DNA of 64,000 bases, taken from Actinomycetales bacterium (GTDB taxonomy: Bacteria; Actinomycetota; Actinomycetes; Actinomycetales; Microbacteriaceae). The notes below the pieces were generated by a model. It was not told the DNA's origin and searched no databases. It worked only from the letters and a program-made list of their open reading frames with translations. Each line of letters begins with the position of its first letter. The first letter of the stretch is position 1. Location: positions 1-64,000 of the forward strand of contig JAATFB010000060.1 in NCBI GenBank assembly GCA_015655415.1, written 5' to 3'. Shown in pieces: positions 6,359 to 28,523 of the stretch. The translations under genes were made by a program, and so were the position numbers.

Positions 6359-6390
6359 TTGACAGCCTCTCGGTAATACTGTAATACAGT
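6359..6390 (+). promoter_or_regulatory. Consensus promoter overlapped by GntR operator site 1
   Basis: A consensus promoter is visible: TTGACA at 6359-6364, a 17-bp spacer and TAATAC at 6382-6387. The perfect palindrome ACTGTAATACAGT at 6378-6390 covers the -10 box. Transcription should begin at about 6394, which is exactly the GTG start, so the message is predicted leaderless. A repressor bound here would block RNA polymerase directly. Confidence 0.8.
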
Positions 6391-6393
6391 CGT

Positions 6394-8160
6394 GTGACGC
6401 TTTCTCGATCCGTCAATGATGACGGCACCCCGATCCGGCGGTTCCACCCGAAGCCGTTCCTCATCCTCAGCATCGTGCTCGCGAGCCTGTTCGCCATAGT
6501 CGCGATCTATCCGCTCCTTCGCGTCGTGCTCGGTCTGTTCAACGTGAACGGCGCGTGGACGGCCGCCCCCATCCTCCACATGTTCGCGGTCAAGGGCCTG
6601 TGGCAGATGCTCGTCAACACGATCGTCGTCGTCGTCGTGAGCAGCGTTCTGGCGCTCGTCGTGGGTGCCGTGTTGGCTTGGCTCAACGAGCGCACCAATG
6701 CGCGGATGGGTACTCTCACCGACTCGCTGCCGCTCATCACCTACCTGGTGCCCCCGCTCGCCGGCGCAATCGGCTGGGCGCTGCTCCTCTCACCATCGGC
6801 GGGCGTGCTCAACGTTCTGCTCCGCGGCGGCGACCCCAGCGGGAGCGGCCCGCTCAACATCTTCAGTTGGCCCGGTCTGGTCTTCGTCTACACCCTGTAC
6901 TCGGTTCCGTACGCGTTCATCGCCGTCTCGAACGGCCTGCGCAACACGGACACGAGCCTCGAGGAGCAGTCGCGGGTGAGCGGCGCCAGCCTCGGGCGGA
7001 CGCTGTGGAGCGTCACGATCCCCTCGATCCGACCGGCGCTCGGCGGCGCGGTTCTCCTCATGGTGACCCAGGCTCTCGCGCTCTACTCGGTGCCCGTCAT
7101 CATCGGTACCGGCGCGAACATCCCGACCCTGGCCGTGGAGATCGTCAACCTGCTCAACTTCTCCTACCCGCCCCACACCAGCGAAGCCATCGGCCTGACG
7201 CTCATCATGGTCGTCCTCGTCGTGGTCGCGTGGGTGGCACAGAGTCGCATCCTGAGGTCCGGGCGCCACGGAACCCTGGGCGGCAGGGGGCAGCGCTTCG
7301 AGGTCACGACCCTCAAGGGCTGGCTCTGGCCGGCCCGGGCGATCTTCCTGCTCTACGGCCTGTTCGCCGTGCTGCTGCCGGTGTTCGCGCTCGTCATCGT
7401 CACGCTCGAGGGCTTCTGGTCGGCGACCATCAACTGGTCGACGCTCAGCGTCAACTGGTTCCTGAAGGCGCTCCAGGACCCGACCACCACGAAGGCGCTC
7501 GGCAACTCGATGCTGCTCGGCGTGGTGGGCGCGACCGTCGGCATCATCATCGCCGCGATCGTCTCAGTGCTCGTCGCCCGGAACCGCACCCGGCTCACCG
7601 GCGTGGTCGACGGCGCGATCAAGCTCCCGTCGGTGGTCTCCCACATCGTCATCGGCGTGGGCATGATCCTCGCCTTCGGAGGGCCGCCGTTCATGCTCGG
7701 CGGCACGGTCGCGATCCTGTTGATCGCCTATCTCGTGGTCTACCTCGCGCAAGGTTCGGTGACCACCGATGCCGCCGTCGCACAGGTGGGCAACGAGCTC
7801 GCCGAGGCGTCCTCCGTCGCCGGCGCGGGCTACGGACGCACCTTCTTCCGTGTGTATCTGCCGCTGATCCTCCCGGCGATGGTCGCGGGCTGGGCGTTCC
7901 TGTTCGCCCGCATGGCCGGCGACCTCACGGTGACGGCGATCCTGGGCTCGCCGAGCAACGTCACCATGGGCTACCTCATCATGCAGATCTTCCACAACGG
8001 GTCGTACGGCCAGCTGGCGCCGATCGCGATCATCATCACGGTGGTCTCATCGGTGGTCGTCATCGCGGTCATCGCGATCTCGAACACGTGGAGCCGGCGG
8101 CACACCAGGAAACGGCCGATCAAGGCCGGGCGAGAAGCGACAGCGACGGTGGCGAAGTGA
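6394..8160 (+). CDS. ABC importer permease, fused two-domain (FbpB/AfuB/phosphonate type)
   Basis: This inner-membrane permease carries two permease domains in one 588-residue chain, about 12 helices, as in FbpB-like importers of iron, sulfate, thiamine or 2-aminoethylphosphonate. Each half has its EAA loop for contact with the ATPase: one near residue 190 (EEQSRVSGASLGRT) and one near residue 470 (EASSVAGAGYGRTFF). The GTG start coincides with the predicted transcription start. The ATPase follows after 29 bp. The matching binding proteins are 10 kb downstream (18.4-20.7 kb), apparently within the same regulon. The substrate is unknown; given the catabolic neighbours, an organic acid is more likely than iron. 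Confidence 0.93.
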   Translation: MTLSRSVNDDGTPIRRFHPKPFLILSIVLASLFAIVAIYPLLRVVLGLFNVNGAWTAAPILHMFAVKGLWQMLVNTIVVVVVSSVLALVVGAVLAWLNERTNARMGTLTDSLPLITYLVPPLAGAIGWALLLSPSAGVLNVLLRGGDPSGSGPLNIFSWPGLVFVYTLYSVPYAFIAVSNGLRNTDTSLEEQSRVSGASLGRTLWSVTIPSIRPALGGAVLLMVTQALALYSVPVIIGTGANIPTLAVEIVNLLNFSYPPHTSEAIGLTLIMVVLVVVAWVAQSRILRSGRHGTLGGRGQRFEVTTLKGWLWPARAIFLLYGLFAVLLPVFALVIVTLEGFWSATINWSTLSVNWFLKALQDPTTTKALGNSMLLGVVGATVGIIIAAIVSVLVARNRTRLTGVVDGAIKLPSVVSHIVIGVGMILAFGGPPFMLGGTVAILLIAYLVVYLAQGSVTTDAAVAQVGNELAEASSVAGAGYGRTFFRVYLPLILPAMVAGWAFLFARMAGDLTVTAILGSPSNVTMGYLIMQIFHNGSYGQLAPIAIIITVVSSVVVIAVIAISNTWSRRHTRKRPIKAGREATATVAK

Positions 8161-8189: not shown

Positions 8190-9347
8190 ATGAGCGGGAC
8201 TGCGACGGAGGCGGCCTCGCCGGCCGAGGTATCCGCCGGACGCGCGCCGATCGTGCAGGTGAAGGGGCTGTCCAAGCGCTTCAAGCGGGAATCCGGTGCG
8301 ATCACCGCGGCGGTCGACGACATCTCTCTGGAGGTCGCGGCAGGCGAGTTCGTGGTCCTGCTCGGGCCGTCCGGCTGCGGCAAGACGACGCTGCTGCGGA
8401 TGCTGGCGGGACTCGAGGTGCCGGATGGCGGCTCGATCGCGATCCGTGGACGCACCGTGTACGACGCCGCCGCGAAGGTCAGCGTGCCGACCGAGCGCCG
8501 CTCGATCAGCATGGTCTTCCAGTCGTATGCGCTGTGGCCCCACATGACGGTCGCGCAGAACATCGCCTACCCCCTGAACCGGTCGGGAAAGAGGCTGGGC
8601 AAGGCGGAGATCGCACGGCAGGTCGAACGCGTGCTGGAGCTCGTGCGCATCCCGGATCTGGCACAGCAGTACCCGAACCAGATGAGCGGCGGGCAGCAGC
8701 AGCGCGTCGCGCTCGCTCGCGCGCTCGTCTCCGGCAGCGACCTCGTACTCTTCGACGAGCCGCTCTCGAACGTCGACGCGCAGGTGCGCGAGCGGTTGCG
8801 CTACGAGCTGCTCGACATCCAGCGCGAGCTCGGCTTCGCAGCGGTCTACGTCACGCACGACCAATCGGAGGCCATGGGCCTCGCGAACCGGATCGCGGTG
8901 ATGGGCGCAGGCCGCATCCGCCAGATCGCCTCTCCGCGCGAGACCTACGAGAACCCGGTGTCCCGCTACGTCGCGAACTTCGTCGGTGTGAGCAACGAGG
9001 AGCCGGGAACGGTCGTCTCGCTCGACGGGGACGTCGCGACGCTGCACACGGCGACCGGCGAGCTGCAGGGCCGTGTGACGGGCGGTGCGGTGGCGGTCGG
9101 AGACGAGGCCACTCTCGTGTGGCGTCCGGAGCACGCGACCGTGTCCGTGCAGGAGCCGACGGACGCTCGGTTCCGCTTCCCCGCACGCGTCGAGGCACTG
9201 CTGTTCGAGGGTGCCCACAACGAGGTGGTGCTGGATGTCGGGGGACGGCGTGCCCGGGCGTGGGCCCACGTGACGGCCGCCCTCGACGCGGGCTCCACCG
9301 TGTGGGTCGCCCTGAACCCCGCCTACGCCCGGGTCCTCAAGGACTAG
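8190..9347 (+). CDS. ABC importer ATP-binding protein
   Basis: This 385-residue ATPase energises the adjacent permease. Residues ~20-260 form the nucleotide-binding domain with Walker A GPSGCGKTT, signature SGGQQQRVALARAL, Walker B LVLFDEPLSNVD and the switch His in VYVTHDQ. The C-terminal ~120 residues form the OB/TOBE regulatory fold typical of the FbpC/PotA/MalK group. I chose ATG 8190, preceded by GAGGGAGCGAAAG, over the GTG that overlaps the permease stop. It is the second gene of the operon that opens at the GntR-controlled promoter. Confidence 0.93.
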   Translation: MSGTATEAASPAEVSAGRAPIVQVKGLSKRFKRESGAITAAVDDISLEVAAGEFVVLLGPSGCGKTTLLRMLAGLEVPDGGSIAIRGRTVYDAAAKVSVPTERRSISMVFQSYALWPHMTVAQNIAYPLNRSGKRLGKAEIARQVERVLELVRIPDLAQQYPNQMSGGQQQRVALARALVSGSDLVLFDEPLSNVDAQVRERLRYELLDIQRELGFAAVYVTHDQSEAMGLANRIAVMGAGRIRQIASPRETYENPVSRYVANFVGVSNEEPGTVVSLDGDVATLHTATGELQGRVTGGAVAVGDEATLVWRPEHATVSVQEPTDARFRFPARVEALLFEGAHNEVVLDVGGRRARAWAHVTAALDAGSTVWVALNPAYARVLKD

Positions 9348-9431
9348 GCATCCGGATGGCTCAGCCGGAAGATCGTGCCCTCGTCGCGCGCAGTGAAGAC
9401 CTGCGCCGCCCCCGCGGAGACCTGCAGTGTT

Positions 9432-9444
9432 ACCGTAATACGGT
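9432..9444. promoter_or_regulatory. GntR operator site 2 (upstream of gntR)
   Basis: The perfect 13-bp palindrome ACCGTAATACGGT lies 55 bp before the gntR start. It matches the site before the transporter operon at 11 of 13 positions, differing only at the paired third and eleventh bases. Its place before the regulator's own gene suggests autoregulation. Confidence 0.75.
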
Positions 9445-9499: not shown

Positions 9500-10225
9500 A
9501 TGGCCGCAGTATCGCAAGTCGCTACCCGTGGAACCCCGGCGACGGTGATGATCCCCAGGGTTGCCGCGCCCCTGCGGCAGGAGCTGCTCGGGCACATCCG
9601 CGCGGCGATCTCCGCTGGCGAGTACAAGCCGGGCGAACGGCTTGTCGAGAGGGTGCTCTGCGAGCGGTACGGCGTGAGCCGGACCGTCGTCCGGGAGGCG
9701 CTGCGCCATCTCGAGGCGGAGGGACTCGTGACCATCGTCCCGAACCGCGGGCCCGTCGTCACCGTGCTCTCTCGGCAAGACGTGGAAGGTCTCTTCGAGG
9801 TCCGTGCCGCCATGGAGGCTCTTGCCGCCGAGCGCTTCGCAGAGCGCGCGACACCGGCTGAGCGCGCGGAGCTTGCGGCATCCTGCGACGCGGTCGAAGC
9901 CGCCTACTCCACGGAAGAGCCGGAAAGCTGGATCAATGCGAAGGATGCCTATTACGACGTCCTGCTGAAGGGCGCGCACAACGATCTCATCCGGAGCACG
10001 ATCGTGGGCATCCACTCCCGCATCCAGGTCATGCGCGGTCGCTCGCTGTCGGCGCCCGGCCGGCGCGAGGCGAGCCTCGCAGAGATCCGCGAGATCACCA
10101 GGCTCGCCGTCGCGGGGAAGGCCGCAGAGGCGGCGAAGGCGGCACGCAGGCACGTCGAGGACGCCGAAAGGGTGGCCTTCGCGCAGAGCGCCGAACTGGC
10201 TCCGTCGAACACATCGGAAGGATGA
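9500..10225 (+). CDS. GntR-family regulator, FadR subfamily (FCD domain)
   Basis: This is a 241-residue repressor-type regulator. An N-terminal winged helix (residues ~20-85; ISAGEYKPGERLVERVLCERYGV region, split by the recognition helix VSRTVVREALRHLEAEGLV) precedes an all-helical FCD ligand domain. FCD domains commonly bind organic acids through a metal held by Asp and His residues. ATG 9500 has AAAGGG ideally placed; ATG 9482 is an alternative. The stop is 6 bp from the next gene, so it heads an operon with the dehydrogenase and the CMD-family gene. A perfect palindrome upstream and identical-core palindromes before four other units make it the likely master regulator of the island. Confidence 0.95.
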   Translation: MAAVSQVATRGTPATVMIPRVAAPLRQELLGHIRAAISAGEYKPGERLVERVLCERYGVSRTVVREALRHLEAEGLVTIVPNRGPVVTVLSRQDVEGLFEVRAAMEALAAERFAERATPAERAELAASCDAVEAAYSTEEPESWINAKDAYYDVLLKGAHNDLIRSTIVGIHSRIQVMRGRSLSAPGRREASLAEIREITRLAVAGKAAEAAKAARRHVEDAERVAFAQSAELAPSNTSEG

Positions 10226-10231: not shown

Positions 10232-11182
10232 ATGGGTGACGGGCTGGTCGACGGAGGCGCGGTCCTCTTCGTGGGCATCGGCGCGATGGGAGAGCCGATG
10301 TCGTCTCGGATCGCGAACGCCGGCGCGTATCGAGTGGTCGTCACCGATGCGGATGCGCAACGGGCATCGGCGGTGGCGGCGCGGATCGGGGCGGTCGCCG
10401 CGACGCCGGAGGAGTCGGCCGGCCCGCTGCACGAGTTCCGGACCGTGGTGCTCAGCCTGCCGTCGAGCCCCGTCGTCGAATCGGTGCTGCTCGGCGACGG
10501 CGGCATCTTCGGGCGCCTGGACCCGGGCTCGGTCGTCATCGACATGAGCTCCTCCACGCCGGCGAGCACTCGCGCGCTCGCCGCGACCGCCGCCCGGCTC
10601 CGGCTCGGATACCTCGACGCACCGGTCTCGGGCGGTGTTGCGAAGGCGCGCACCGGGGAGCTCTCGATCATGGTCGGAGGCGAGGAGGCGGTGTTCGCGT
10701 CGCGTCGCGAACTGCTCGAGTCGATGGGCACCACGATCACTCACGTCGGCGGTCCTGGAACGGGCCACGCGATGAAGGCGCTCAACAACCTGCTCTCCGC
10801 GATCGGCCTCATCGGCGCGGCGGAGGTGCTGGCGACCGCGACGAAGTTCGGCATCGAGCCGCGCATCGCGCTCGACGTGCTCAACGCGTCGACCGGGCGC
10901 AACCAGGCCACGGAGGTGAAGTACGGGCGTTATGTGCTCTCGCGCTCGTTCGACTCCGGCTTCGCGATGCAGCTGATGGTCAAGGATCTGAGAATCGCGC
11001 TCGAGATCGCGCATGACGCCCGGATTCCGGTGCCGATGAGCGCGAGCGCTCTCGAGGAGTGGACCGCCGCGTTCGACGCACTGGGGCAGAACGCCGACCA
11101 CACCGAGATCGCCGAGTATGTCGAGCGGCGCGCGGGGGTCCTTCTCACCGAGCCGACAGACGCGGCGATCGCCGCATCGTGA
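10232..11182 (+). CDS. NAD(P)-dependent oxidoreductase, 3-hydroxyisobutyrate dehydrogenase family (copy 1)
   Basis: This is a beta-hydroxyacid dehydrogenase of the HIBADH/tartronate-semialdehyde reductase family (316 residues), oxidising or reducing a 3-hydroxy acid at a carbon next to a carboxylate. The Rossmann motif VGIGAMGEPM is at residue ~15, the substrate loop DAPVSGGVAKA at ~130, and the catalytic Lys lies in GHAMKALNNLL at ~180. All key residues are present. It follows gntR after 6 bp, with AAGGA as ribosome site, and precedes the CMD-family gene by 17 bp. A second family member lies at 24.5 kb in the same regulon; the two are clearly diverged and probably act on different intermediates. 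Confidence 0.92.
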   Translation: MGDGLVDGGAVLFVGIGAMGEPMSSRIANAGAYRVVVTDADAQRASAVAARIGAVAATPEESAGPLHEFRTVVLSLPSSPVVESVLLGDGGIFGRLDPGSVVIDMSSSTPASTRALAATAARLRLGYLDAPVSGGVAKARTGELSIMVGGEEAVFASRRELLESMGTTITHVGGPGTGHAMKALNNLLSAIGLIGAAEVLATATKFGIEPRIALDVLNASTGRNQATEVKYGRYVLSRSFDSGFAMQLMVKDLRIALEIAHDARIPVPMSASALEEWTAAFDALGQNADHTEIAEYVERRAGVLLTEPTDAAIAAS

Positions 11183-11199: not shown

Positions 11200-11616
11200 A
11201 TGAGCGAAGTCACGCAGGAACAGCAGGACTACATCGACAATATGGCGCGGGCCCGCGGATATGTCCTCGAGTACCACAAGGTCATGGCGAAGCAAGACTA
11301 CGCGACGCTCAAGGCCGTCGACAACATGGTGCATGCCGCATACCTCGCCCCCCGCGCGCTCGACAGAAGGACCAAAGAGCTCATCTTCATCGTGAGCCTC
11401 ACGGTGATGCGGGCGACGAAGGGGCAGATACAGGCGCACATCAAGGTCGCCCTCGATCTCGGGCTCACCCCGCAGGAGATCCTGGAGGCGATCGAGATCG
11501 CACTGCCCGAGGCCGGGATCGTCGCCTTCCAGGAGGGCTTCGCGGCCTGGCAGGAGCTGGTCGGCGCGGACGGGATCGAGCCGCAGGTCGAGGCGTTCCG
11601 CGCCAAGCGCCCGTGA
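11200..11616 (+). CDS. Carboxymuconolactone decarboxylase-family protein (no CxxC)
   Basis: This small (138-residue) all-helical protein belongs to the CMD/AhpD superfamily. The family motif region GQIQAHIKVALDLGLTPQEI is intact, with the conserved His, but there are no cysteines. It therefore cannot be an AhpD-type peroxidase and is closer to true carboxymuconolactone decarboxylases or lyase-like members. ATG 11200 is preceded by AAAGGGGA. As the last gene of the gntR operon in an organic-acid island, a decarboxylase, lactone or isomerase role is plausible. The AhpD-like protein at 56.4 kb, by contrast, keeps CxxC. Confidence 0.88.
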   Translation: MSEVTQEQQDYIDNMARARGYVLEYHKVMAKQDYATLKAVDNMVHAAYLAPRALDRRTKELIFIVSLTVMRATKGQIQAHIKVALDLGLTPQEILEAIEIALPEAGIVAFQEGFAAWQELVGADGIEPQVEAFRAKRP

Positions 11617-11646
11617 CTTGACACTCCTCGCCCCTGACCGAGTAGT

Positions 11647-11659
11647 GTCGTAATACAGG
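11647..11659. promoter_or_regulatory. GntR operator site 3 (upstream of the comA-like operon)
   Basis: GTCGTAATACAGG carries the core GTAATACRG and differs from the perfect palindromes mainly at the outer bases. It lies 45 bp before the ComA-like start. TTGACA at 11618-11623 is a possible -35 box, with TAGTGT at 11643-11648 as a candidate -10 (19-bp spacer), so the site would again overlap the promoter. Confidence 0.65.
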
Positions 11660-11704
11660 ATTACAATTCAATCGGGCGCTTGCCGCTCCGGAGAGGTGAC
11701 AACG

Positions 11705-12541
11705 GTGTCAGATGCTTCGACGACCGAGCGGTCGTTCCCGTCCCTCGCGCTCAACGAGCGCGCAGCCAAGCCGCGCGGTGCGGGGATCACGGAGATCCGC
11801 GGCGGCTACTACACGATCGTCGGACCACAGCGCCTTGCGGACATCCTCGACGTCGCGGGCGAATGGGTCGACTGGATCAAGGTCCCCGGGCCCGGTGCCG
11901 CCCTGACCCCTGCCGGCACGTTGCGACAGCTGGCCGAGGTATCGCGTGCGCACGGTGTGAAGTTCGGGATCGGCGGCCTCATCGAGAAGGTGGTCACTCA
12001 GGGTCCGAAGGCAGTTGACGCCTACTTCGACAGGCTTCCCGAGCTGGGCTTCGAGGTCACCGAGATCTCTGCCGGCTTCCTCGCGTTGCCCGACTCCGAC
12101 TATCTGCGTCTCGTGGAGCGGGCTGCCAAGAGCGGCCTCACCGTCAAGGCGGAGGTCGGCATTCAGTTCGGGGCAGGCGGCACATCCGAGGCCGATGATC
12201 TCGAGTCGGCGGGGACCGGATCGGTGAGCCATGCGATCTCGCTGGCGCGGCGAGCGCTGGACGCCGGAGCGCACTTCGTCGTCCTCGAGTCCGAGGGCGT
12301 GACGGAATCGGTCAAGGTCTGGCGCACCGACGTCCCTTCGGCTCTCGCCGACGCGATCGGCATCGAGAAGATCATCTTCGAGGCCGCCGAGCCCAAGGTC
12401 TTCGAGTGGTACATCAAGAACTTCGGGCCCGAGGTGAACGTCTTCATCGATCACAGCCAGGCGCTGCTCCTCGAGGCGGTGCGATCGGGCGTCTGGGGCT
12501 CCACCACGCTGTTCAACCGCGTGTTCACGTACAAGGGCTGA
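11705..12541 (+). CDS. Phosphosulfolactate synthase (ComA)-family TIM-barrel protein
   Basis: This 278-residue protein matches the ComA family, which in methanogens adds sulfite to phosphoenolpyruvate as the first step to coenzyme M. Family landmarks are visible in order: GDYVD-like VAGEWVDWIKVPGP at ~50, KFGIGG at ~85, the GFEVTEIS strand at ~118, KAEVG at ~148, FVVLESEG at ~200, KIIFEAAEP at ~235 and a C-terminal LLEAVRSGVWG. The start is placed at GTG 11705 because GGAGAGG lies 8 bp before it; GTG 11696 would overlap that site. It opens an operon with a flavoprotein and ComD/ComE-like subunits. ComB and ComC homologues are absent, so coenzyme M synthesis is unlikely. A reverse (lyase) or altered reaction in a degradative route is my inference. 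Confidence 0.85.
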   Translation: MSDASTTERSFPSLALNERAAKPRGAGITEIRGGYYTIVGPQRLADILDVAGEWVDWIKVPGPGAALTPAGTLRQLAEVSRAHGVKFGIGGLIEKVVTQGPKAVDAYFDRLPELGFEVTEISAGFLALPDSDYLRLVERAAKSGLTVKAEVGIQFGAGGTSEADDLESAGTGSVSHAISLARRALDAGAHFVVLESEGVTESVKVWRTDVPSALADAIGIEKIIFEAAEPKVFEWYIKNFGPEVNVFIDHSQALLLEAVRSGVWGSTTLFNRVFTYKG

Positions 12542-12575
12542 GCGCCGGCGAGGCGCGGAAGGTATGGGGAAGCGA

Positions 12576-14072
12576 ATGACGAAGGTCGTAGTGATCGGTG
12601 CCGGAAACGCAGGGCTCTCGGCGGCGCTGTCGGCACGGGAGCACGGTGCGGACGTGGTGGTGCTGGAGGCGGCGCCCGAGGATGAGTACGGCAGCGACTC
12701 ATACTTCTCCGGAGGCCTGTTCCGGGTCTCCTACGAGAGGTACTCCGATCTGTCCGCGCTCGTGGACGATCTGACCCTCGCAGGCGAGGGGCTGGACGAG
12801 TTCGCGAGCTACGCCGAGGCCGACTTCCTCGACGACTGGGGCCGCGTCACCGGGTACCGGCTCGACCCTGAGATCTCCGACCACGTCGTCAGCAACAGCT
12901 TCGAGGCTCTCAAGTGGTTGCACGAGAAGGGCAAAGTGCCGTTCGTCTCGCCGATCATCGTCGACGAGAACGGGCGCGCCCGGCACAGCCGTCCCGGCTG
13001 GCACGGCGGCTTCGTCGAGGCGTCCGGCGCCGGCGCCGGGCTCACCGACGCCCTGCGCAGATCGACCGTGGCAAGTGGTGCAGACATCCGTTACGGAGTC
13101 GAGGCGATCGGGCTCACGCGGCGAGACGGCGGCCGGGGGTGGACGGTGGCGACGCGCACCACCGTCGGCGGCGTGGTCGCCGAGATCGACGCAGACGCGC
13201 TCATCGTGGCCAGCGGCGGCTTCCAGGCCGACACCGAATGGCGCACTCGGGACCTCGGCGTCGGCTGGGATCTCGCGAAGGTGCGAGGCTCCGTGCACAA
13301 CACCGGAAAGGGCCTGCGTCTCCTTCTCGACCAGGGTGCGAAGGCCGCCGGCAACTGGTCCGGCTGCCACGCCGTCGCGTGGAGCACGGGCTCCGGCGAG
13401 GCAGGGCGAGCCGATGCCAACCACGTCTTCGAGCGCGAGAGCCACCCGTTCGGCATCAGCGTCAACTCTCTCGGTGAGCGTTTTCTCGACGAGGGGGAGG
13501 ACTTCGGCGCATACACCTATGCGAAGTACGGCAAGGTCATCCTCACTCAGCCGGGCCAGGTCGCCTGGCAGATCTTCGACGAGAAGACCCGCAGCCTGTG
13601 GACCGATGAGTACCGCTACAAGAATCCCGAGGCGGCCCGCATCCAGGCCGGCAGCCTCGAGGAGCTCGCCGACAAGATCGTGCCCCGCGGCATGGGGTCG
13701 AAGGAGACCTTCCTCAAGACCGTGGCCGACTACAACGCGGCGGTCGACTCGGGCATCGAGTTCAACCCCTACATCAAGGACGGCAAACGCACGAATGGCC
13801 TCGTCCCCGACAAGACCAACTGGTCGCAGAAGATCGAGGACGGCCCCTTCTACGCGTTCGAGGTGACCTGCGGAATCACGTTCACCTTCGGCGGGGTGAA
13901 GGTGGACACGGGTGCCCGTGTGCTTGACCGCCGCGACGAGGCGATCCCGAAGCTGTACGCAGTCGGCGAAGCGGTCGGCGGCCTCTACTACTTCAACTAC
14001 GCGAGCGGGACGGGGCTCACCGCCGGCACCGTGCTCGGACGTGAGGCCGGCAGGCTGGCGGCGACGGCGTGA
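12576..14072 (+). CDS. FAD-dependent dehydrogenase, fumarate reductase/tricarballylate dehydrogenase-like
   Basis: This is a soluble flavoprotein of the FAD_binding_2 (fumarate reductase/3-ketosteroid dehydrogenase/TcuA) family, 498 residues. The N-terminal dinucleotide motif is VVVIGAGNAGLSAALSA. The cap domain holds RFLDEGEDFG, and the C-terminal FAD contact is AVGEAVGGLYYFNYASGTGL. Such enzymes introduce or reduce a C=C bond next to carboxylates. I prefer ATG 12576 (GGGGAAG five bases upstream) to ATG 12564. The stop overlaps the ComD-like start by 4 bp. It needs an electron partner; the etfAB-cytochrome b unit in the same regulon is the obvious candidate, in place of the TcuB partner used for tricarballylate. 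Confidence 0.9.
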   Translation: MTKVVVIGAGNAGLSAALSAREHGADVVVLEAAPEDEYGSDSYFSGGLFRVSYERYSDLSALVDDLTLAGEGLDEFASYAEADFLDDWGRVTGYRLDPEISDHVVSNSFEALKWLHEKGKVPFVSPIIVDENGRARHSRPGWHGGFVEASGAGAGLTDALRRSTVASGADIRYGVEAIGLTRRDGGRGWTVATRTTVGGVVAEIDADALIVASGGFQADTEWRTRDLGVGWDLAKVRGSVHNTGKGLRLLLDQGAKAAGNWSGCHAVAWSTGSGEAGRADANHVFERESHPFGISVNSLGERFLDEGEDFGAYTYAKYGKVILTQPGQVAWQIFDEKTRSLWTDEYRYKNPEAARIQAGSLEELADKIVPRGMGSKETFLKTVADYNAAVDSGIEFNPYIKDGKRTNGLVPDKTNWSQKIEDGPFYAFEVTCGITFTFGGVKVDTGARVLDRRDEAIPKLYAVGEAVGGLYYFNYASGTGLTAGTVLGREAGRLAATA

Positions 14073-14593
14073 GCGAGACGGCGACCGAGCTCTCGTGGCA
14101 GGAGCGGGTCTACCGCGTGCTGCGTGAGCACGGGGTGACACAGTTCCCCTATGTGCCCGACGCAGGCCATAGATTCCTCATCGAGGCCGCGACCGCCGAC
14201 CCGTCGGTGCACGCGATCCCCTGCACCACAGAGGAAGAGGGCGTCGGCATCGTCGCGGGAGCCCATCTCGGCGGCGAGACGGGCGTGCTTCTCATGCAGT
14301 CCAGTGGCGTGGGCAACACGATCAACTTCCTGTCGCTCATCCAGCACTGCAGCTTTCCATTCCTGACGCTCGTGACGATGCGGGGCGACTTCGGCGAGCA
14401 GAACCCGTGGCAGTTCGCGATGGGCCAGGCCGTCGAGCCGACGCTCAACGCCATGGGCCTCATCACCCTCAGGGCCGATGACCCCGAGCAGGCCGTCAGC
14501 ACCGTCGAGGCCGCGCTGGGCATGACGCAGGTCGGTGGCCGCTCGGTCGCCGTGCTGTTCGGCCAGCGACTGCTGGGCGCCAAGAAGTTCTAG
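14069..14593 (+). CDS. Sulfopyruvate decarboxylase-like ThDP enzyme, alpha subunit (ComD type)
   Basis: This is the pyrimidine-binding half of a split ThDP decarboxylase (174 residues), like ComD of sulfopyruvate decarboxylase and the N-terminal half of phosphonopyruvate decarboxylase. The cofactor-activating Glu is in CTTEEEGVGIVAGAHLGG, and LMQSSGVGNTIN follows as in the family. It starts at GTG 14069 in a GTGA overlap with the flavoprotein gene and is followed after 8 bp by its beta subunit. The two should form one enzyme converting a 3-substituted pyruvate to the aldehyde (sulfopyruvate to sulfoacetaldehyde in the known case). Actual substrate unproven. Confidence 0.88.
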   Translation: MSETATELSWQERVYRVLREHGVTQFPYVPDAGHRFLIEAATADPSVHAIPCTTEEEGVGIVAGAHLGGETGVLLMQSSGVGNTINFLSLIQHCSFPFLTLVTMRGDFGEQNPWQFAMGQAVEPTLNAMGLITLRADDPEQAVSTVEAALGMTQVGGRSVAVLFGQRLLGAKKF

Positions 14594-14601: not shown

Positions 14602-15180
14602 ATGCTGGAACGAACCCCTGCCCTCGCGGCACTGCTCGACGGGACTGACGACCGGCTCATCGTCACCGGGCTCGGCAGTGCGGCGAACGACGTGGCATAC
14701 ATCACGGATTTCGCGCCACGCGCGTTCACCATGGACGGCGTCATGGGCGCCGCCGCGTCGCTCGGTCTGGGAGTAGCGCTCGCGCAGCCCGCTCGCGAGG
14801 TGCTCGTCGTCACGGGAGATGGCGAACTCCTCATGAACATCGGCACGCTCGCGACGATCGCCCTCCAGAATCCTCAGAATCTCGGGATCGTGGTCCTCGA
14901 CAATGGCCTCTACGGTCTGACCGGCGGCCAGACCACGGCGACCGCGACGGTGGCCGATCTCGAGACGGTGGCGCGTGGTCTCGGCATCCGCCGCACGTTG
15001 ACGGTGCGTTCCGACGACGAGCTGACCGCGGCGCACGAGCTCATCGCAACGCCCGGGGACACCGCGGTCATCGTGGTCAAGGTCGCGCCGGGTCCGGCGG
15101 CCGCGGTCCGCATCGACCGCGATGGATCCAGACTGCGGTCGAACTTCCGCTCCTACGTGCTCTCGGAGGTCGGCCGATGA
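14602..15180 (+). CDS. Sulfopyruvate decarboxylase-like ThDP enzyme, beta subunit (ComE type)
   Basis: This is the diphosphate-binding half (192 residues) that pairs with the preceding ComD-like subunit. The ThDP/Mg motif starts at GDGELLMNIG and ends in VVLDNGLYG, with the usual ~28-residue spacing. AGGAGG lies just before the ATG. The stop overlaps the start of an aldehyde dehydrogenase (ATGA), which fits a pathway where the decarboxylase makes an aldehyde that is oxidised at once. Both halves of the enzyme look catalytically intact. Confidence 0.88.
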   Translation: MLERTPALAALLDGTDDRLIVTGLGSAANDVAYITDFAPRAFTMDGVMGAAASLGLGVALAQPAREVLVVTGDGELLMNIGTLATIALQNPQNLGIVVLDNGLYGLTGGQTTATATVADLETVARGLGIRRTLTVRSDDELTAAHELIATPGDTAVIVVKVAPGPAAAVRIDRDGSRLRSNFRSYVLSEVGR

Positions 15181-16661
15181 CTGCGACCGTGTATCCCATG
15201 CTCATCGACGGGCAGGACTGGCCCGGCGACGGCCCCGGGATCATCGACGTCGACAACCCCTACGACGGTGAGGTGTGGGCACGGGTGCCGGTGGGCACCG
15301 ATGCCGACGTGGACCGCGCCGTCGCCGCAGCCACCCGGGCCTTCCAGTCCGGCCCATGGGGCACGATGCTCCCGGCGGCGCGAGCGAGGCTGATGCGGCG
15401 CCTCGGGGAGCTCATCGACCGCGAAGCCGAGGCGCTCACCCGCGCCCAGGTCATGGAGAACGGCAAGGCGATTCGCGAGCAGTCGGCGCAGACGAGCGGA
15501 CTGTCCTCATTCCTCAACTACTTCGCGGGGGTCGCGGAGATCCGCGGCGGCGAGACGATTCCCGTGAGCGTCAAGGACACCTTCGCCTACACGGTACGTG
15601 AGCCGCTGGGCGTCGTCGCCTGCCTCACCCCGTGGAACAGCCCGCTTGCGCTGCTGATGTGGAAGCTCGCGCCGGCGCTCGCCGCGGGGAACACGATCGT
15701 GATCAAGCCGTCCGAGGTCACTCCGGTGTCAACGGTGATGCTCGCCCGGCTGGCCAAGGAGGCAGGCCTGCCCGACGGTGTCATCAACGTGGTCACTGGA
15801 GCGGGCGCCACGGGGGCCGCGCTCGCAAGGCATCCCGGTGTACGCAAGATCGCGTTCACCGGCTCCACCGCTGTCGGCCGGGAGATCGGCAAGATCGCGG
15901 GCGAGAAGCTCATCTCGGCCTCGCTGGAACTGGGCGGCAAGTCGCCGAACATCGTCTTCGACGACGCGGATCTCGACGCGGCGATCGAGGGGACCGTCGG
16001 CGGCGTCTTCGCGGCCGCCGGGCAGACCTGCATCGCCGGCTCGCGCGTGCTCGTGCACGACTCCATCTACGACGAGTTCGCGAGGCGCCTGGTCGAGAGA
16101 TCCGAGCGGATCGTCCAGGGCGACCCGCTCGACTGGGACACCGAGGTCGGCACCATCGCCAACGCGCGGCAATACTCCAAGGTGCTGTCGCTGATCGAGA
16201 TGGCCAACGGCGAGGGGGCCCATCTGCTGCTCGGCGGCGGTCGGCCCGAGGCACCCGCCCTGCAGAAGGGCCTGTTCATCGCCCCGACGATCTACGGTGA
16301 TGTGACGCCGGACATGCGGATCACACAAGAAGAGGTGTTCGGGCCGGTCGTCGTGCTTCAGCGGTTCCACGACGACGAAGAGGCAGTCCGACTCGCCAAC
16401 GGGACCCCGTACGGCCTCGCCGCCGGCGTCTGGACGCGCGACGTCAAGCGCGCTCACCGGGTCGCCCGGCAGATCGTCGCCGGGACGGTCTGGATCAACA
16501 CCTACCGTAAGACGAACTTCGCGACGCCGTTCGGCGGCTTCAAAGACAGCGGGATCGGGCGAGAGAACGGCGCCAACGCCATCGACGAGTTCACCGAGGA
16601 GAAGCTCATCTGGCTCGACCTCGGCGACGGGGTGGCCGACCCGTTCAACCCGTTCGCGTGA
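15177..16661 (+). CDS. NAD(P)-dependent aldehyde dehydrogenase (copy 1)
   Basis: This is a complete ALDH-superfamily enzyme (494 residues). It has the cofactor motifs TPWNSPLALL and IKPSE, the turn FTGSTAVGR, the general base Glu in ELGGKSPN and the catalytic Cys in GQTCIAGSR, with EEVFGPVV later. It oxidises an aldehyde to the acid. The ATGA overlap with the ComE-like gene suggests its substrate is the product of that decarboxylase, for example a sulfo-, phospho- or carboxy-acetaldehyde. The substrate cannot be decided from sequence. A ThDP enzyme follows 18 bp downstream. Confidence 0.93.
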   Translation: MTATVYPMLIDGQDWPGDGPGIIDVDNPYDGEVWARVPVGTDADVDRAVAAATRAFQSGPWGTMLPAARARLMRRLGELIDREAEALTRAQVMENGKAIREQSAQTSGLSSFLNYFAGVAEIRGGETIPVSVKDTFAYTVREPLGVVACLTPWNSPLALLMWKLAPALAAGNTIVIKPSEVTPVSTVMLARLAKEAGLPDGVINVVTGAGATGAALARHPGVRKIAFTGSTAVGREIGKIAGEKLISASLELGGKSPNIVFDDADLDAAIEGTVGGVFAAAGQTCIAGSRVLVHDSIYDEFARRLVERSERIVQGDPLDWDTEVGTIANARQYSKVLSLIEMANGEGAHLLLGGGRPEAPALQKGLFIAPTIYGDVTPDMRITQEEVFGPVVVLQRFHDDEEAVRLANGTPYGLAAGVWTRDVKRAHRVARQIVAGTVWINTYRKTNFATPFGGFKDSGIGRENGANAIDEFTEEKLIWLDLGDGVADPFNPFA

Positions 16662-16679: not shown

Positions 16680-18305
16680 ATGCGCGGATACCAGCTCGTT
16701 CCCACGCTGCTGCGACAGCGCGGGCTGACGACGGTCTTCGCGATGCTTGCGGAGACGAACGGACCGTGGTTGGGATACGGCATCGCCCACGGTCTCGTTC
16801 GTCTGGTGCGGACGAGGCATGAGGAGACGGCGGTGATGGCCGCCAACGGCTTCGCCCGAGTGACGGGTTCCCCCGGGGTCGCGAGCGTCACACGAGGGCC
16901 TGGTTTCGCGAACTCGATCAACGCGCTCGCCGCCGCAGTGGACACGCACGTTCCCCTCATCCTCTTCACGGGAGAGAGCCCGCGACCGACGGCGCAGTCG
17001 CAGAACCTCGAGCAGGAGGGCATCGCTCGGCTGCTCGGCGCGGGCTACGTCGCGGTGCATGAGGTCGCCGAGCTGCCTGATGTGCTCGACCGCGCGATCG
17101 ACCGCGCCACCTGGCGCGGCTGGCCGCAGGTCGTCGCCGTGCCGGAGCCGCTCCTCGGGGAGGAGGCGGAGCCGGGTGAATGGGTCCCGGTCCCGCCCGC
17201 TCCCGCGGTCCCGAACGCCGCCGCCGTCGCGAAGGCCGTGACGCTGCTCACGGCTGCGAAGCACCCGCTCATCATCGGCGGTCACGGGGCGGTCGGGGCA
17301 GCCGCGCGGACCGCACTGGAACGGCTTGCGGAGCATACCGGAGCAGCGCTCGGCACGACCCTGATGGCGATCCGGAACTTCGCGGGACACCCGAACGAGA
17401 TCGGCCTCGTCGGCGGCTGGGCTCCACGAGCGGCGCGCGAGTATCTGCAGTCCGTGGATCTCGTCGTCGCATTCGGCGCGACGTTGAACCGCTTCACGAT
17501 GGATCGGGGCCGGCTCTTCCCCGAGGCATCGGTCGTGCAGGTGCTGCTCGACGCGAATGACGCCGGCTCGTTCCGGCGCCCGAACGTGCTGCTCGTCGGC
17601 GACGCCGCCGAGACCGCGTCGGCGGTACTCGCCGAGCTCGATCGCCGCGGCATGCCGCAGCGCGCGTATCCGGGGCCGAGCTTCGCCTCGGTTCGGGAGT
17701 CGCTCCTCGCCGTGGAGCGCGGACGCGCCGCCGCCGGCGGGCTCGACGTCATCGCGGTCGGGCATCGGATCGACGAGCTGCTGCCGCCCGATCGCATCGT
17801 GGTGACCGACTCCGGCCGGGCGGTCATCCCGCTTCCCGATCTCGTCGACGCGCGAGACGGGCGCTCGTGGATCCACGGACGAGGCTACGGGTCGATCGGA
17901 CAAGGACTCGGCCTCGCGATCGGTGCGGCGACGGCACAGCCCGGCCGCACCACCGTGCTCTTCGTCGGCGATGGGGCCTTCCTCTCCGCCTGCCATGATC
18001 TCGACGCGGCGCGCCTGGCGGGACTCGAGAACCTCGTGATCGTCGTCCTCAATGACGAGAAGTACGGCATGGAGGTCGGCGCCATGACGCGCTTCGGCCT
18101 CTCCCTCGAAGCGATCAGCCAGTCGACCCCCGAGCTCGTCGCACTCGCCCGGGTGTACGGCGGCGACGGCGTCCGAATCGAATCCGTCGCCGACCTCGAC
18201 GCGCTCAGAATTCCGATCGGGCAGGGACTGTTTCTGGTCGACGCTCGGCTCGATGCCGAGTCAGACCCGGCCTTCGCCGTCGGCGACGGATCCGGCGCAA
18301 AGTAA
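16680..18305 (+). CDS. ThDP-dependent enzyme, acetolactate synthase/benzoylformate decarboxylase-like
   Basis: This is a full-length ThDP enzyme (541 residues) with the three-domain layout of acetolactate synthase relatives. The catalytic Glu is in RTRHEETAVMAANGFAR at ~45, a central domain spans ~185-330, and the ThDP/Mg motif runs from GDGAFLSACHD to VVLNDEKYG at ~410-440. It is not the sulfoacetaldehyde acetyltransferase Xsc by eye, because the N-terminal sequence differs. It closes the run of tightly spaced enzyme genes that begins with the ComA-like gene. Two ThDP enzymes in one operon suggest two 2-oxo-acid steps, or a carboligation as well as a decarboxylation. Confidence 0.9.
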   Translation: MRGYQLVPTLLRQRGLTTVFAMLAETNGPWLGYGIAHGLVRLVRTRHEETAVMAANGFARVTGSPGVASVTRGPGFANSINALAAAVDTHVPLILFTGESPRPTAQSQNLEQEGIARLLGAGYVAVHEVAELPDVLDRAIDRATWRGWPQVVAVPEPLLGEEAEPGEWVPVPPAPAVPNAAAVAKAVTLLTAAKHPLIIGGHGAVGAAARTALERLAEHTGAALGTTLMAIRNFAGHPNEIGLVGGWAPRAAREYLQSVDLVVAFGATLNRFTMDRGRLFPEASVVQVLLDANDAGSFRRPNVLLVGDAAETASAVLAELDRRGMPQRAYPGPSFASVRESLLAVERGRAAAGGLDVIAVGHRIDELLPPDRIVVTDSGRAVIPLPDLVDARDGRSWIHGRGYGSIGQGLGLAIGAATAQPGRTTVLFVGDGAFLSACHDLDAARLAGLENLVIVVLNDEKYGMEVGAMTRFGLSLEAISQSTPELVALARVYGGDGVRIESVADLDALRIPIGQGLFLVDARLDAESDPAFAVGDGSGAK

Positions 18306-18400: not shown

Positions 18401-19477
18401 ATGCAACGAAGCGTTTCACAGCTCGTCCGAACAGCACGGGTCGGCGGCGCCTTCGCCGCGGTCGCAGCCGCCGCGCTGATCATCGCCGGCTGCAGTTCGG
18501 CGCCGACGACGACTCATTCCACTGTTCCCAGCAACGACCCACTCGCCTCGCTCGTCGCCGCCGCCCAGAAGGAGGGATCGCTGACGATCTACGGCTCGCC
18601 GGATGAGCCGGGTGTCGACGCTGCGCTGAAGCAGTTCCAGCAGCAGTACGACATCCACGCCACGTATACGCGCCTGGCCGGCACGAGCCTCGAGTCACGC
18701 TACGCCTCGGAGAAGCAGTCGCACGCGACGACCGCCGACGTCATCATGCTCAACCTCGACCAGTTCGTGCCCGACTCGCTCAAGAGCGGGATCATCACCT
18801 CTCCCGCCGACCTCAAGATCCCCGGGTACCCGTGGCACTTTCCGGCGAAATTCCTGCTGCCGGACTATGGCACCGCCGAGGTCGGCGTCGGCGTGCGCGG
18901 CATCACCATCAACACGAACTATGTGAAGCCCGGCCAGATCACGACCTGGAGCGATCTGCTGAAACCGAAGTGGAAGGGGCACATCGGAGTCCCGGACCCC
19001 ACGTCGGCTGCGGTCTACACCGGTCACTGGTACACCGTCGCGCAGCACCAGAAGGGCGGCGCGCAGAAGTTCCTCGAGGGCGTTCGCGCACAGCTCGCCC
19101 GCACCGGGGTCTATGCGGCCGGGGCTCCCGCGACATCGGCCGCCGGCTCCGGGGAGGTGTGGATCGTGCCGATGAACATCGCGAGTCTCACCAACAGCGC
19201 GGTTCAGGAGGGGGCGCCGCTCTCCTTCGTCACCCCGAAGGACACGGTGGCCGACCAGCAGGTGATATTCGCGAACAGCGCCCCGGACCACCCGAACGCC
19301 GCGAAGCTCTTCATCGCCTACATGATGTCCCGGGGCGGTTCGCAGACGATGGCGAAGAACAACGACGAGCTGTCGCCCTACGACGCCTCGAAGCTCCCGA
19401 GCACGCTCTGGAGCTGGCCGATCAGCACGGCCGCCGAACAGCAGGACAACGTCAACCGCTGGCTCACCGGACGCTGA
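18401..19477 (+). CDS. ABC importer substrate-binding lipoprotein (receptor 1)
   Basis: This extracellular receptor belongs to the type-2 periplasmic binding fold used by iron, sulfate and 2-aminoethylphosphonate importers (358 residues). The signal peptide ends in the lipobox LIIAGC, so the mature protein is lipid-anchored. The binding-fold core starts at AAQKEGSLTIYGSPDEPG and keeps hallmark stretches such as DVIMLNLDQF and GSGEVWIVPMN. ATG 18401 follows AAAGAGAG by 7 bases; the track start at 18353 lies before this signal. It is closely similar along its whole length to the next gene. It should deliver substrate to the permease encoded at 6.4 kb, since no other type-matched permease is in the window. 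Confidence 0.92.
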   Translation: MQRSVSQLVRTARVGGAFAAVAAAALIIAGCSSAPTTTHSTVPSNDPLASLVAAAQKEGSLTIYGSPDEPGVDAALKQFQQQYDIHATYTRLAGTSLESRYASEKQSHATTADVIMLNLDQFVPDSLKSGIITSPADLKIPGYPWHFPAKFLLPDYGTAEVGVGVRGITINTNYVKPGQITTWSDLLKPKWKGHIGVPDPTSAAVYTGHWYTVAQHQKGGAQKFLEGVRAQLARTGVYAAGAPATSAAGSGEVWIVPMNIASLTNSAVQEGAPLSFVTPKDTVADQQVIFANSAPDHPNAAKLFIAYMMSRGGSQTMAKNNDELSPYDASKLPSTLWSWPISTAAEQQDNVNRWLTGR

Positions 19478-19596
19478 CCCAGAGGCTCGCGACGACGGCC
19501 ACCGCCGTCCGGCGGGATTCCGCGTCACGCCGTCCGCTGAGGACGAGTTGTCTTCCCGTAACAAGACAAGATCGCAAGTGAAAGAGAGCAATGCAA

Positions 19597-20688
19597 ATGC
19601 AATGGCGCATTTCGTCCCGAACACGCATGGCACGTGCCGGCACCGCCATCGCGGCGATCGCGGCTGCGGCCGTGATCCTCGCCGGCTGCAGTTCGACCTC
19701 GACGGCCACGTCGAACTCCACCAGCACCAGCGCGAGCACGAGCGACCCCGCTCTGGCCCCGCTCATCGCGGCGGCGAAGAAGGAGGGCTCGCTCCTGGTC
19801 TACGGCTCCCCCGGCGAGCCCGGGCTCAAGGCGGCGGTGGCCGGCTTCAGCCAGAAGTACGGGATCAAGGCGAGCTACGTCCGACTCGTCGGCGGTGACC
19901 TCGAATCCCGATACAGCTCGGAGAAGCAGGCGGGTTCCCCGACTGCCGACGTTCTCATGCTCAATCTCGACAGCTTTGCGGACACCGCGAAGCAGCAGGG
20001 GCTCATCACCGACCCCGCTGACCTCAAGATCCCCGGCTATCCCTGGGGCTTCCCCTCGAAGTTCCTGCTCTCCGACTACGGAACCGCAGTCGTCGGCCTG
20101 CAGATCCGCGGCATCACCTACAACACCAACTACGTGAAGCCAGGCGAGATCAAGACCTGGAGCGACCTGCTGAACCCCAAGTGGAAGGGCCACATCGGCG
20201 TTCCGGATCCGACCTCGGCGGCGGTCTACGTCGGCCACTGGTACACCGTCGGTCAGCACCAGAAGGGCGGCGCGCAGAAATTCCTCGAGGGCGTGCACGC
20301 TCAGCTCGCCCACAACGGCGTCTACGCGAGCGGCGTCCCGGCCTCGGCTGCGGCCGGTTCCGGCGAGGTGTGGATCGTGCCGATGAACATCGCGAGCACG
20401 ACCAAGACGGTCTCCGACCAGGGGGCCCCGCTCAAGTTCGTCGTCCCGTCCCAGACGACGACCGACCAGCAGGTGATCTTCGCGAACAGCGATCCCGCCC
20501 ACCCGAACGCGGCAAAGCTCTTCATCGCCTACATGATGTCGAAAGAGGGCGCCGACACGATGGCGACGAACAACAACGAGACCTCGCCATTCGACACCGG
20601 CAAGCTGCCGAAGACGCTGTGGAACTGGGCGCCGTCGCTCGCAGACAAAGAGCAGAGCGACGTCAACCTCTGGCTCACCGGCCGATAA
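19597..20688 (+). CDS. ABC importer substrate-binding lipoprotein (receptor 2, tandem paralogue)
   Basis: This is a second lipoprotein receptor (363 residues) with lipobox VILAGC and the same architecture as its neighbour. Long blocks are shared (for instance KWKGHIGVPDPTSAAVY), and both end in WLTGR, so it arose by tandem duplication. Differences concentrate in loops after the signal peptide and in the region around QGAPLKF, which may alter ligand choice. The spacing of AAAGAGAG favours ATG 19597 over 19591. Two receptors for one permease suggest two related ligands or affinities. Confidence 0.92.
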   Translation: MQWRISSRTRMARAGTAIAAIAAAAVILAGCSSTSTATSNSTSTSASTSDPALAPLIAAAKKEGSLLVYGSPGEPGLKAAVAGFSQKYGIKASYVRLVGGDLESRYSSEKQAGSPTADVLMLNLDSFADTAKQQGLITDPADLKIPGYPWGFPSKFLLSDYGTAVVGLQIRGITYNTNYVKPGEIKTWSDLLNPKWKGHIGVPDPTSAAVYVGHWYTVGQHQKGGAQKFLEGVHAQLAHNGVYASGVPASAAAGSGEVWIVPMNIASTTKTVSDQGAPLKFVVPSQTTTDQQVIFANSDPAHPNAAKLFIAYMMSKEGADTMATNNNETSPFDTGKLPKTLWNWAPSLADKEQSDVNLWLTGR

Positions 20689-20705: not shown

Positions 20706-21236
20706 ATGATTCCAGTAGGCACGCCGACCACCGACATCAGCGACGCGCATCCGGATCTCCAGGTCTGCGAGACGCAGTTCACCCGGTACGGCGGCAAGAC
20801 AGCCTTCGGCGGTCGCATCCGGACCCTCAAGTGCCTGGAGGACACGGCGCTCCTCATGCAGGTGCTCGGTCAGCCGGGCCACGGCGCGGTGCTCGTCGTC
20901 GACGGGGAGGCGTCCATGCGCAGCGCGCTGCTGGGCGACCGGCACGCCGGCATGGCGGCCGCGAACGGATGGGCGGGCGTCATCGTGTACGGTGCCGTGC
21001 GCGACAGCGTGGGCATCGGACGGCTCGAGCTCGGGGTGAAGGCCCTCGGGGTGACGCCCAGGCGCAGCGGCAAGTCGGCGCTCGGCGCGGTCGACGCACC
21101 CGTCCGCTTCGGCGGCGCCGAGTTCGTCGCGGGCGGCTACCTGTGGAGCGACGAGGACGGTGTCGTGGTCGCCCCGCCCGGCTGGGACTCCGACTCGCTC
21201 GAGCCGGCGCCGCAGCAGCAGGCGTACGCGCACTGA
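20706..21236 (+). CDS. RraA-family protein (putative 4-hydroxy-4-methyl-2-oxoglutarate aldolase-like)
   Basis: This 176-residue protein belongs to the RraA/HMG-aldolase fold. The motif MAAANGWAGVIVYGAVRD carries the conserved Arg-Asp that holds the divalent metal and pyruvate enolate in the aldolases, and the Gly-rich GDRHAGM precedes it. True RraA (RNase E inhibitor) has the same fold but lacks lyase activity, and RNase E inhibition is unlikely here. Being the last gene of the island's forward operon, with AGAAGGGG before its ATG, it more likely cleaves a 4-hydroxy-2-oxo acid or decarboxylates oxaloacetate-like compounds. A strong hairpin follows. Confidence 0.87.
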   Translation: MIPVGTPTTDISDAHPDLQVCETQFTRYGGKTAFGGRIRTLKCLEDTALLMQVLGQPGHGAVLVVDGEASMRSALLGDRHAGMAAANGWAGVIVYGAVRDSVGIGRLELGVKALGVTPRRSGKSALGAVDAPVRFGGAEFVAGGYLWSDEDGVVVAPPGWDSDSLEPAPQQQAYAH

Positions 21237-22800: not shown

Positions 22801-22952
22801 CCTCGAGCTCCTCGCTGTCTGGTCGTACAGGACAATAGGCTGCCCATCAGGGCGAACAGGGCGGTGGCGCACTCGGCGCCATCTCCTCGTCACATGTGCA
22901 CCGGTCAGGAGGTTTGACCCGCGCAGCCGGCAGAACTACATTAGCTTGTGCG

Positions 22953-22979
22953 ACCGTAATACAGGATGCCAATTTGGCA
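22953..22979. promoter_or_regulatory. GntR operator site 4 plus a second palindrome in the prpD/ALDH divergent region
   Basis: ACCGTAATACAGG (22953-22965) matches the island operator. One base later lies a different perfect palindrome, TGCCAATTTGGCA (22967-22979). The two sit between the divergent prpD-like and aldehyde dehydrogenase genes, so both promoters could be controlled. The second palindrome hints at another regulator, which I cannot identify. Confidence 0.65.
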
Positions 22980-27738: not shown

Positions 27739-27746
27739 GCTGCGCC

Positions 27747-28523
27747 TCACAGGAGCTTGGAATCGGCGAGAAAGTCAACGAGGCGACCGGCCGCATCCCC
27801 CTCGTCGACGAGCTTGAGACCAGCCACGCGCTCTGGTCGTCTGGCGACGCCGAGGACGATGGAATGGGCCCGCGTTTCGTCCTCGATGGCGACGCCGAGG
27901 TCCGAGACCGACAACGTCATGAGCGGCTTCCGGCGCGCTGCGATGGCGCTCTTCAGACTCGGGAAGCGCGGATCCGGCAGCGCCTCGGTGATCGAGATGA
28001 CACAGGGCGTCGCCGCTTCGACGGTGAGCCTGGCCGAGGCGGTCGCCCGTGTGCCTGCGACGCGCCCTTCGTCGATGCCAACGGTTGAGAGGCTGGTCGC
28101 GCTCGGCACCTGCAGGAATTCCGCGATCGCCGCGGGAACGGCGCCACTTGCGCCATCGGTCGACCGGTCACCGGCGACGACCAGGTCGAAGCCGATCCGG
28201 CGAACGGCCGCGGCCAGGACCTCGGCCGTCGTGACGAGATCGGCGCCTCTAAGGGCCTCGTCGGCGACGAGCACCGCACTGTCCGCCCCCATCGCCAGCG
28301 CCTTGCGGATCGATGGCTCAGACGACGCCGGCCCCATGGACAGCGCCACGATCTCGGTTCCGTCGTGCTCGTCGGCGTAGCTCAGCGCAACCTCGAGCGC
28401 GCGTTCATCGATCTCATCGAGCACGGCGCCGCTCGCTGCGCGATCGGCCAGGCCGGTCTGCTCGTCGAGCACACGCTGGCCGTAGGTGTCCGGAACTTCC
28501 TTGACCAGCACCACGATCTTCAC
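27747..28523 (-). CDS. etfB: Electron transfer flavoprotein, beta subunit
   Basis: This is a 258-residue ETF beta subunit. It begins [20 protein letters not shown], keeps the family [12 protein letters not shown] segment and the AMP-site region [21 protein letters not shown] 28523 has GGAGG at the right distance; the 80 extra residues in the track are spurious. It is the first gene of the etfBA-cytochrome b operon. A weak copy of the GntR operator lies 128 bp upstream. Confidence 0.94.

Follow-up and report, generated by a model that had tools for sequence, protein, structure and literature searches.

A divergent branch of the ComA (phosphosulfolactate synthase) family, predicted to hydrate aconitate-type acids beside MmgE/PrpD and TcuA-like proteins

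Aconitase occurs almost universally and is sensitive to oxygen and iron; for the half-reaction in which it converts cis-aconitate to isocitrate, no substitute from outside the superfamily is known to us. No such non-aconitase replacement was found in the literature searched, nor was any link of phosphosulfolactate synthase homologs to MmgE/PrpD or to aconitase (subscription papers and preprints lay outside the search). In the known methylcitrate cycle, the PrpD product 2-methyl-cis-aconitate is hydrated by aconitase (PMC5690661). The characterized MmgE/PrpD enzymes act on substrates with a 1,4-dicarboxylate core, the family members performing dehydration, decarboxylation, and epimerization (PMC12290011). 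A further source of cis-aconitate is TcuA of the TcuABC system of Salmonella, which produces this acid according to a paper cited in PMC10468695.

The protein described here is encoded at positions 11705-12541 (forward strand) of a 64,000-nucleotide stretch (hereafter, the window) of contig JAATFB010000060.1 from an Actinomycetales bacterium (assembly GCA_015655415.1). It shares its fold and family (PF02679) with ComA, (2R)-phospho-3-sulfolactate synthase (1qwg; YitD, 1u83; XcbB1 of Xanthobacter), and we predict that it is a hydratase of aconitate-type acids from a divergent branch of this family. As the preliminary description of the locus had it, an intact ComA-family open reading frame is found there; it has 281 codons from GTG 11696 or 278 from GTG 11705, and the latter start is plausible because GGAGAG lies 9 bases 5' of it, at a better spacing than for GTG 11696. 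In a profile search, PF02679 matches the protein over its full length (1e-63, 215.5 bits, cut-off 25.2) and was the only hit of the domain search, in which PF00330, the iron-sulfur aconitase superfamily, was not matched. The archaeal ComA equivalog TIGR03849, a model built for archaeal copies, is not reached (84.5 bits, cut-off 280). The AlphaFold model (pLDDT 87.4) is a TIM barrel, with ComA of Methanocaldococcus (1qwg) and YitD (1u83) as the best solved matches and unrelated barrels far behind. The gene is the sole PF02679 copy found in its genome; canonical YitD-like ComA, about 48-50% identical to Bacillus YitD, is encoded in four congeners but was not found in the window genome, which instead carries the divergent copy.

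Members of the branch are 25-30% identical to ComA. For the residue comparison, suggested earlier as a check, 76 proteins of the branch and 28 canonical ComA sequences were aligned together. Eleven positions, among them Lys62 (Mj Lys43) and five glutamates, form a core shared by both groups: Asp59, Lys62, Gly93, Gly94, Glu97, Glu123, Ser125, Glu153, Gly191, Glu198, and Glu229 are invariant in a 41-row alignment, and in the larger set two canonical copies alone deviate, at Lys62. Most of these residues lie at or near the C-terminal strand ends of the AlphaFold model, on the side of a barrel that is usually catalytic. While this set is fixed, the parts that distinguish canonical ComA are changed. 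Lys137 (Mj numbering), found in 28/28 canonical proteins, is Gln or Met in all 76 branch members (Gln in 58/58 bacterial and haloarchaeal, Met in 18/18 micrarchaeal proteins; Gln157 in the window protein); RESG, a motif that follows the sixth strand in most canonical proteins, is absent from 76/76, the branch having ESEG in its place, and Arg244 is replaced by Trp. The branch has also gained a glycine-rich insert and new fixed residues, e.g., Arg35, Lys151, Glu204, and Trp209. RESGxG was dropped as a strict canonical marker, since RESGxxG, RETG or REGG is found in its place in part of the canonical copies; we therefore base the distinction on Lys137 and on the fact that no branch member has RESG. 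Of the ComA landmarks that had been said to be kept, all four quoted motifs (GFEVTEIS, KAEVG, FEAAEP, AVRSGVWG) are indeed present, but they are ComA-typical only in part, their canonical counterparts being GFEAVEIS, LTEVGKK, FEAPQK, and LRRGLRGDT, and Lys137, RESG, and Arg244 are lost.

The phylogeny, likewise suggested beforehand, comprised 88 PF02679 proteins. The window protein falls into a clade of its own, split from canonical ComA by an inner branch of 3.9 changes per column with 100/100 support; several long end branches were flagged in this tree, and we use only this split and the pairing of the window protein with a Micromonospora copy, L023. The window protein is most probably not a phosphosulfolactate synthase.

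Other members of the family deserve mention. A third PF02679 group (L017, L072, L073) retains Lys137 and lacks RESG; one copy, on Bradyrhizobium plasmids, shares its operon with MmgE/PrpD and PrpF, so that aconitate-type acids may have been adopted a second time here. On a Legionella lytica plasmid, a 970-residue protein (L071:2856-5768) has ComA at its C-terminal end and is followed by a 2-phosphosulfolactate phosphatase gene. In L107, an apparent fusion, the additional C-terminal stretch seems to result from a frameshift and not to be a domain.

Homologs from the branch, about 41-55% identical, were found in haloarchaea, Salinibacter, plasmids of Methylosinus and Methylocystis, Rubrobacter-like and other actinobacteria, Nitrospirota, and deltaproteobacteria. 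Their genes, unlike those of ComA, have no comB or comC neighbors. In the stretches read, a gene for MmgE/PrpD accompanies that of the ComA-like protein in 68 of the 82 loci of the branch (L017, a locus of another PF02679 group, is left out of this count), including those of haloarchaea, actinobacteria, methanotroph plasmids, Salinibacter, and Nitrospirota; the loci are not independent, because many of the haloarchaeal ones are close kin. The distance is at most 200 bases in 42 loci, with both genes on the same strand in 38 of these. Clustering of all neighbors yielded MmgE/PrpD as the one family strongly shared across phyla. Sulfur genes were considered as a common theme and rejected, since DsrE and sulfurtransferase genes accompany the Salinibacter and Halorussus copies but are not common to other loci. 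Several deltaproteobacterial copies had no informative neighbor. In methanotrophs and actinobacteria, a DUF488-like gene (L105:8539-8922, and in L012, L025, L104, and L107) is found repeatedly in the vicinity of the ComA-like gene.

The usual MmgE/PrpD partner keeps PrpD-type motifs, e.g., HPSDN, and its nearest solved structures are cis-aconitate decarboxylase and 2-methylcitrate dehydratase. In four Nitrospirota, the ComA-like gene heads an operon with the genes for PrpB and PrpD, and in one of them also PrpC; the PrpB and PrpD proteins tested from these operons pass the curated cut-offs, and the operon is a true methylcitrate operon. Here the neighboring PrpD would supply the substrate, and we propose the ComA-fold protein for the hydration that is carried out by aconitase in the described cycle.

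The most telling neighborhood is that of Micrarchaeota. In one genome of this group, a distant branch member (35% identity) adjoins genes for MmgE/PrpD, isocitrate dehydrogenase, citrate synthase, and malate dehydrogenase; PF00330 was not found in this genome, while it was present in 15 other carrier genomes and in 14/14 controls. The ComA-like gene is carried by 20 of 295 Micrarchaeota genomes. In all 18 micrarchaeal loci read it adjoins MmgE/PrpD (same strand in 14, convergent in 4), with citrate synthase and an isocitrate-type dehydrogenase close by in 17; the contig of the 18th stops at MmgE/PrpD. PF00330 was found in 0/20 carriers, the assemblies being incomplete, and in 4/12 non-carriers chosen from the phylum, where three proteins are AcnA-sized and encoded beside citrate synthase and one has the size of LeuC/HacA (Fisher p = 0.014, with a small and non-random sample of non-carriers). 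The micrarchaeal citrate synthase and malate dehydrogenase score above curated cut-offs; for the isocitrate-type dehydrogenase, the best matches are isocitrate dehydrogenase models, below their cut-offs, with LEU3/homoisocitrate types in one subgroup. Dehydrogenases of either type need a hydratase for their substrate, and no hydratase of a known kind is present. Because citrate synthase and the dehydrogenase are there and aconitase is absent, the cluster needs a hydration step. The ComA-fold branch would thus share with the aconitase superfamily (AcnA/AcnB, PF00330) the predicted reaction and the genomic slot beside citrate synthase, although it differs in fold and family and the sequences are unrelated. 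The combination of citrate synthase and a matching dehydrogenase without aconitase holds for Micrarchaeota only, not for other carriers. Absence of aconitase was also considered for the Nitrospirota and actinobacterial carriers and rejected, as aconitase is present there; since most bacterial and haloarchaeal carriers have it, the pair with MmgE/PrpD would be at best a second route in them.

The window copy groups with L023 (support 100/99), and L141 (54% identity) and L043 have a similar setting. TcuA is encoded near all four members of this subclade; three of these neighbors score above the TcuA cut-off, and that of L043 is truncated. In both L023 and L141 the gene order is binding protein, permease, ATPase, TcuA, aldo/keto reductase, ComA-like protein. 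In the window, the TcuA-like FAD dehydrogenase gene (12564-14072, forward strand; tricarballylate to a cis-aconitate-type product) begins 22 bases 3' of the ComA-like stop, in agreement with the flavoprotein neighbor reported beforehand; its product passes the equivalog NF006130 (465 bits, cut-off 369) and does not reach the older TIGR02485 (220 vs. 373). The setting is, however, richer than the single flavoprotein described. Short gaps or overlaps join this gene, all on the forward strand, with those for a ComD-like ThDP subunit with the PYR domain (14069-14593; TIGR03845, 105 bits, below the cut-off of 148), a ComE-like ThDP subunit with the PP domain (14602-15180; TIGR03846, 143 bits, below 221.5), an aldehyde dehydrogenase (15177-16661; PF00171, 6e-175), and a three-domain ThDP enzyme of the acetolactate synthase type (16680-18305; PF02776, PF00205, PF02775). 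They are followed on the same strand by two genes for ABC substrate-binding proteins of the 2-aminoethylphosphonate/iron type (18401-19477 and 19591-20688; TIGR03261, 2.7e-12 for the first) and an RraA-like aldolase family gene (20706-21236; PF03737, 7e-37), and then, on the reverse strand and 9 kb on, by an MmgE/PrpD gene (21370-22893; PF03972, 8e-58). The latter protein belongs to a subgroup other than the usual branch partner, its closest solved relative being IDS epimerase. Upstream, also on the forward strand, are genes for an ABC permease (6394-8160) and ATPase (about 8190-9347; TIGR03262, 5e-40, under its cut-off), a GntR-type regulator (9500-10225; TIGR03338, 1.7e-28, under its cut-off), a protein of the 3-hydroxyisobutyrate/tartronate semialdehyde dehydrogenase family (10232-11182; PF03446, PF14833), which adjoins the ComA-like gene in L043 too, and a carboxymuconolactone decarboxylase family protein (11200-11616; PF02627, 6e-12). 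The absence of comB and comC partners, also claimed initially, holds for the cluster, but a distant ComB-family gene (PF04029, 69 bits) lies elsewhere in the genome; the ComC family (PF02615) was not found in this assembly, which is 87.6% complete.

The window thus shares with TcuABC the TcuA-type flavoprotein and the expected cis-aconitate product, and differs from it in having an ABC importer, ETF genes, the ComA-like protein, and extra decarboxylase and dehydrogenase genes; TcuB and TcuC were not recognized near the ComA-like gene, as judged without a model search. Relatives of the ComD/E-like pair (53-57% identity; L150, L152, L153) are labelled phosphonopyruvate decarboxylase or ThDP-binding protein and occur with aldehyde dehydrogenase, CoA-transferase, and MaoC, and in two cases MmgE/PrpD; they are probably a 2-oxoacid decarboxylase.

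Putative regulatory signals tie distant parts of the window together. A palindrome, GTAATACAGGATTAC, a candidate GntR operator with related sites elsewhere in the window, is found at 11650-11664, preceded at 11618-11649 (forward strand) by TTGACACT-N18-AGTGTC, a candidate promoter/operator of the ComA-like operon (found once, 0 expected). Sites of the form GTAATACnGnATTAC are at 6373-6387, 9427-9441, 11650-11664, 22956-22970, and 28654-28668, that is, upstream of the ABC permease, GntR, ComA-like, and ETF genes, with one between MmgE/PrpD and a second aldehyde dehydrogenase gene; there are 12 strand-matches against 0.77 expected, a number reached in 0/100 shuffles. The shared palindromes outline a putative regulon of about 22 kb, and because of them the ComA-like gene and MmgE/PrpD look like parts of one regulon. 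The ETF alpha and beta genes (26773-28763, reverse strand; PF00766, PF01012), lying 3' of the site at 28654, could possibly provide the electron acceptor for the TcuA-like flavoprotein.

The MmgE/PrpD, PrpD, and TcuA contexts all meet at aconitate-type acids, which are the likely metabolite class shared by the branch. That the branch acts on such acids rather than on phosphoenolpyruvate and sulfite is well supported by gene context and residues, and the earlier suggestion of another nucleophile or substrate for the ComA-like enzyme gains support from the changed residues and the citrate- and aconitate-type partners. The branch would have exchanged phosphoenolpyruvate and sulfite for cis-aconitate-type substrates, unsaturated acids with two or three carboxyl groups, most likely adding water across the double bond, or removing it in reverse. 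The ComA chemistry could be kept, with the nucleophile going to the beta carbon and a proton to the alpha carbon, water taking the place of sulfite and a carboxylate that of phosphate. In our view, the clusters of Micrarchaeota and Nitrospirota are explained most simply by hydration. An MmgE/PrpD dehydratase and a ComA-fold hydratase would then convert (methyl)citrate via (methyl)-cis-aconitate to (methyl)isocitrate without the iron-sulfur aconitase. In the window, an imported tricarballylate-like acid would probably receive its double bond from the TcuA-like flavoprotein and be hydrated by the ComA-like enzyme. We consider it rather probable that the ComA-fold branch is a hydratase of cis-aconitate-type acids, that with MmgE/PrpD it forms an iron-sulfur-free aconitase, and that the window copy hydrates the TcuA product. 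The wider picture, in which the pair makes isocitrate from citrate in Micrarchaeota and methylisocitrate from methylcitrate in Nitrospirota, gives haloarchaea and actinobacteria a second route, and has in the window a derived copy for catabolism of a tricarballylate-like acid, has in our estimate an even chance of being right. We infer the reaction, the substrate, any metal, and all downstream steps of the window cluster.

Among the alternatives, the one that survives best, though we think it somewhat less probable than hydration of the TcuA product, concerns the window copy alone: it may hydrate another substrate, e.g., a larger or 2-oxo tricarboxylate whose product is cut by the RraA-like aldolase. 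The loop after Lys62 is changed in the window protein, L023, L141, and L043 relative to the MmgE-linked clade, and their gene set is different; RraA-like genes are present in the window and L023, and the window adds the ComD/E-like pair and two aldehyde dehydrogenases. Against this, these copies share almost every other residue specific to the branch, and the tricarballylate dehydrogenase cut-off is passed by three of their four TcuA neighbors. Alternatively, the branch may act on the same acids by isomerizing, decarboxylating or cleaving them, or by adding a nucleophile other than water (e.g., sulfite or ammonia). Neighborhoods fix the metabolite class better than the reaction, and MmgE/PrpD members themselves vary in chemistry (PMC12290011), but we regard this as unlikely, given the hydration step needed by the aconitase-free micrarchaeal cluster and the lack of sulfur genes as common neighbors. 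The sulfite addition or release considered in the preliminary description is not supported, in view of the change of Lys137 and RESG in 76/76 branch members, the TIGR03849 score, and recurrent partners that handle citrate- and aconitate-type acids, not sulfite. A partial coenzyme M/sulfoacetaldehyde route, from phosphosulfolactate made by ComA through oxidation by another enzyme and ComDE-like decarboxylation of sulfopyruvate to sulfoacetate made by the aldehyde dehydrogenase, could draw on the presence of the ComA-fold, ComD/E-like, and aldehyde dehydrogenase genes in one operon and on the PF04029 gene elsewhere, but it is highly improbable and was rejected in view of the lost residues, ComA, ComD, and ComE model scores far under the cut-offs, relatives of the ComD/E-like pair that occur with MmgE/PrpD, CoA-transferases, and aldehyde dehydrogenase and do not adjoin ComA, the absence of ComD/E from the closest ComA-like clusters (L023, L141), and the absence of PF02615 from the 87.6% complete assembly of the window genome.

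If the hydratase reading is true, it would supply a missing step of the citric acid cycle in a number of Micrarchaeota and assign a role to the many proteins labelled 'phosphosulfolactate synthase', e.g., in haloarchaea, which are not known as coenzyme M makers. It would also provide an iron-free tool for organic acid chemistry.
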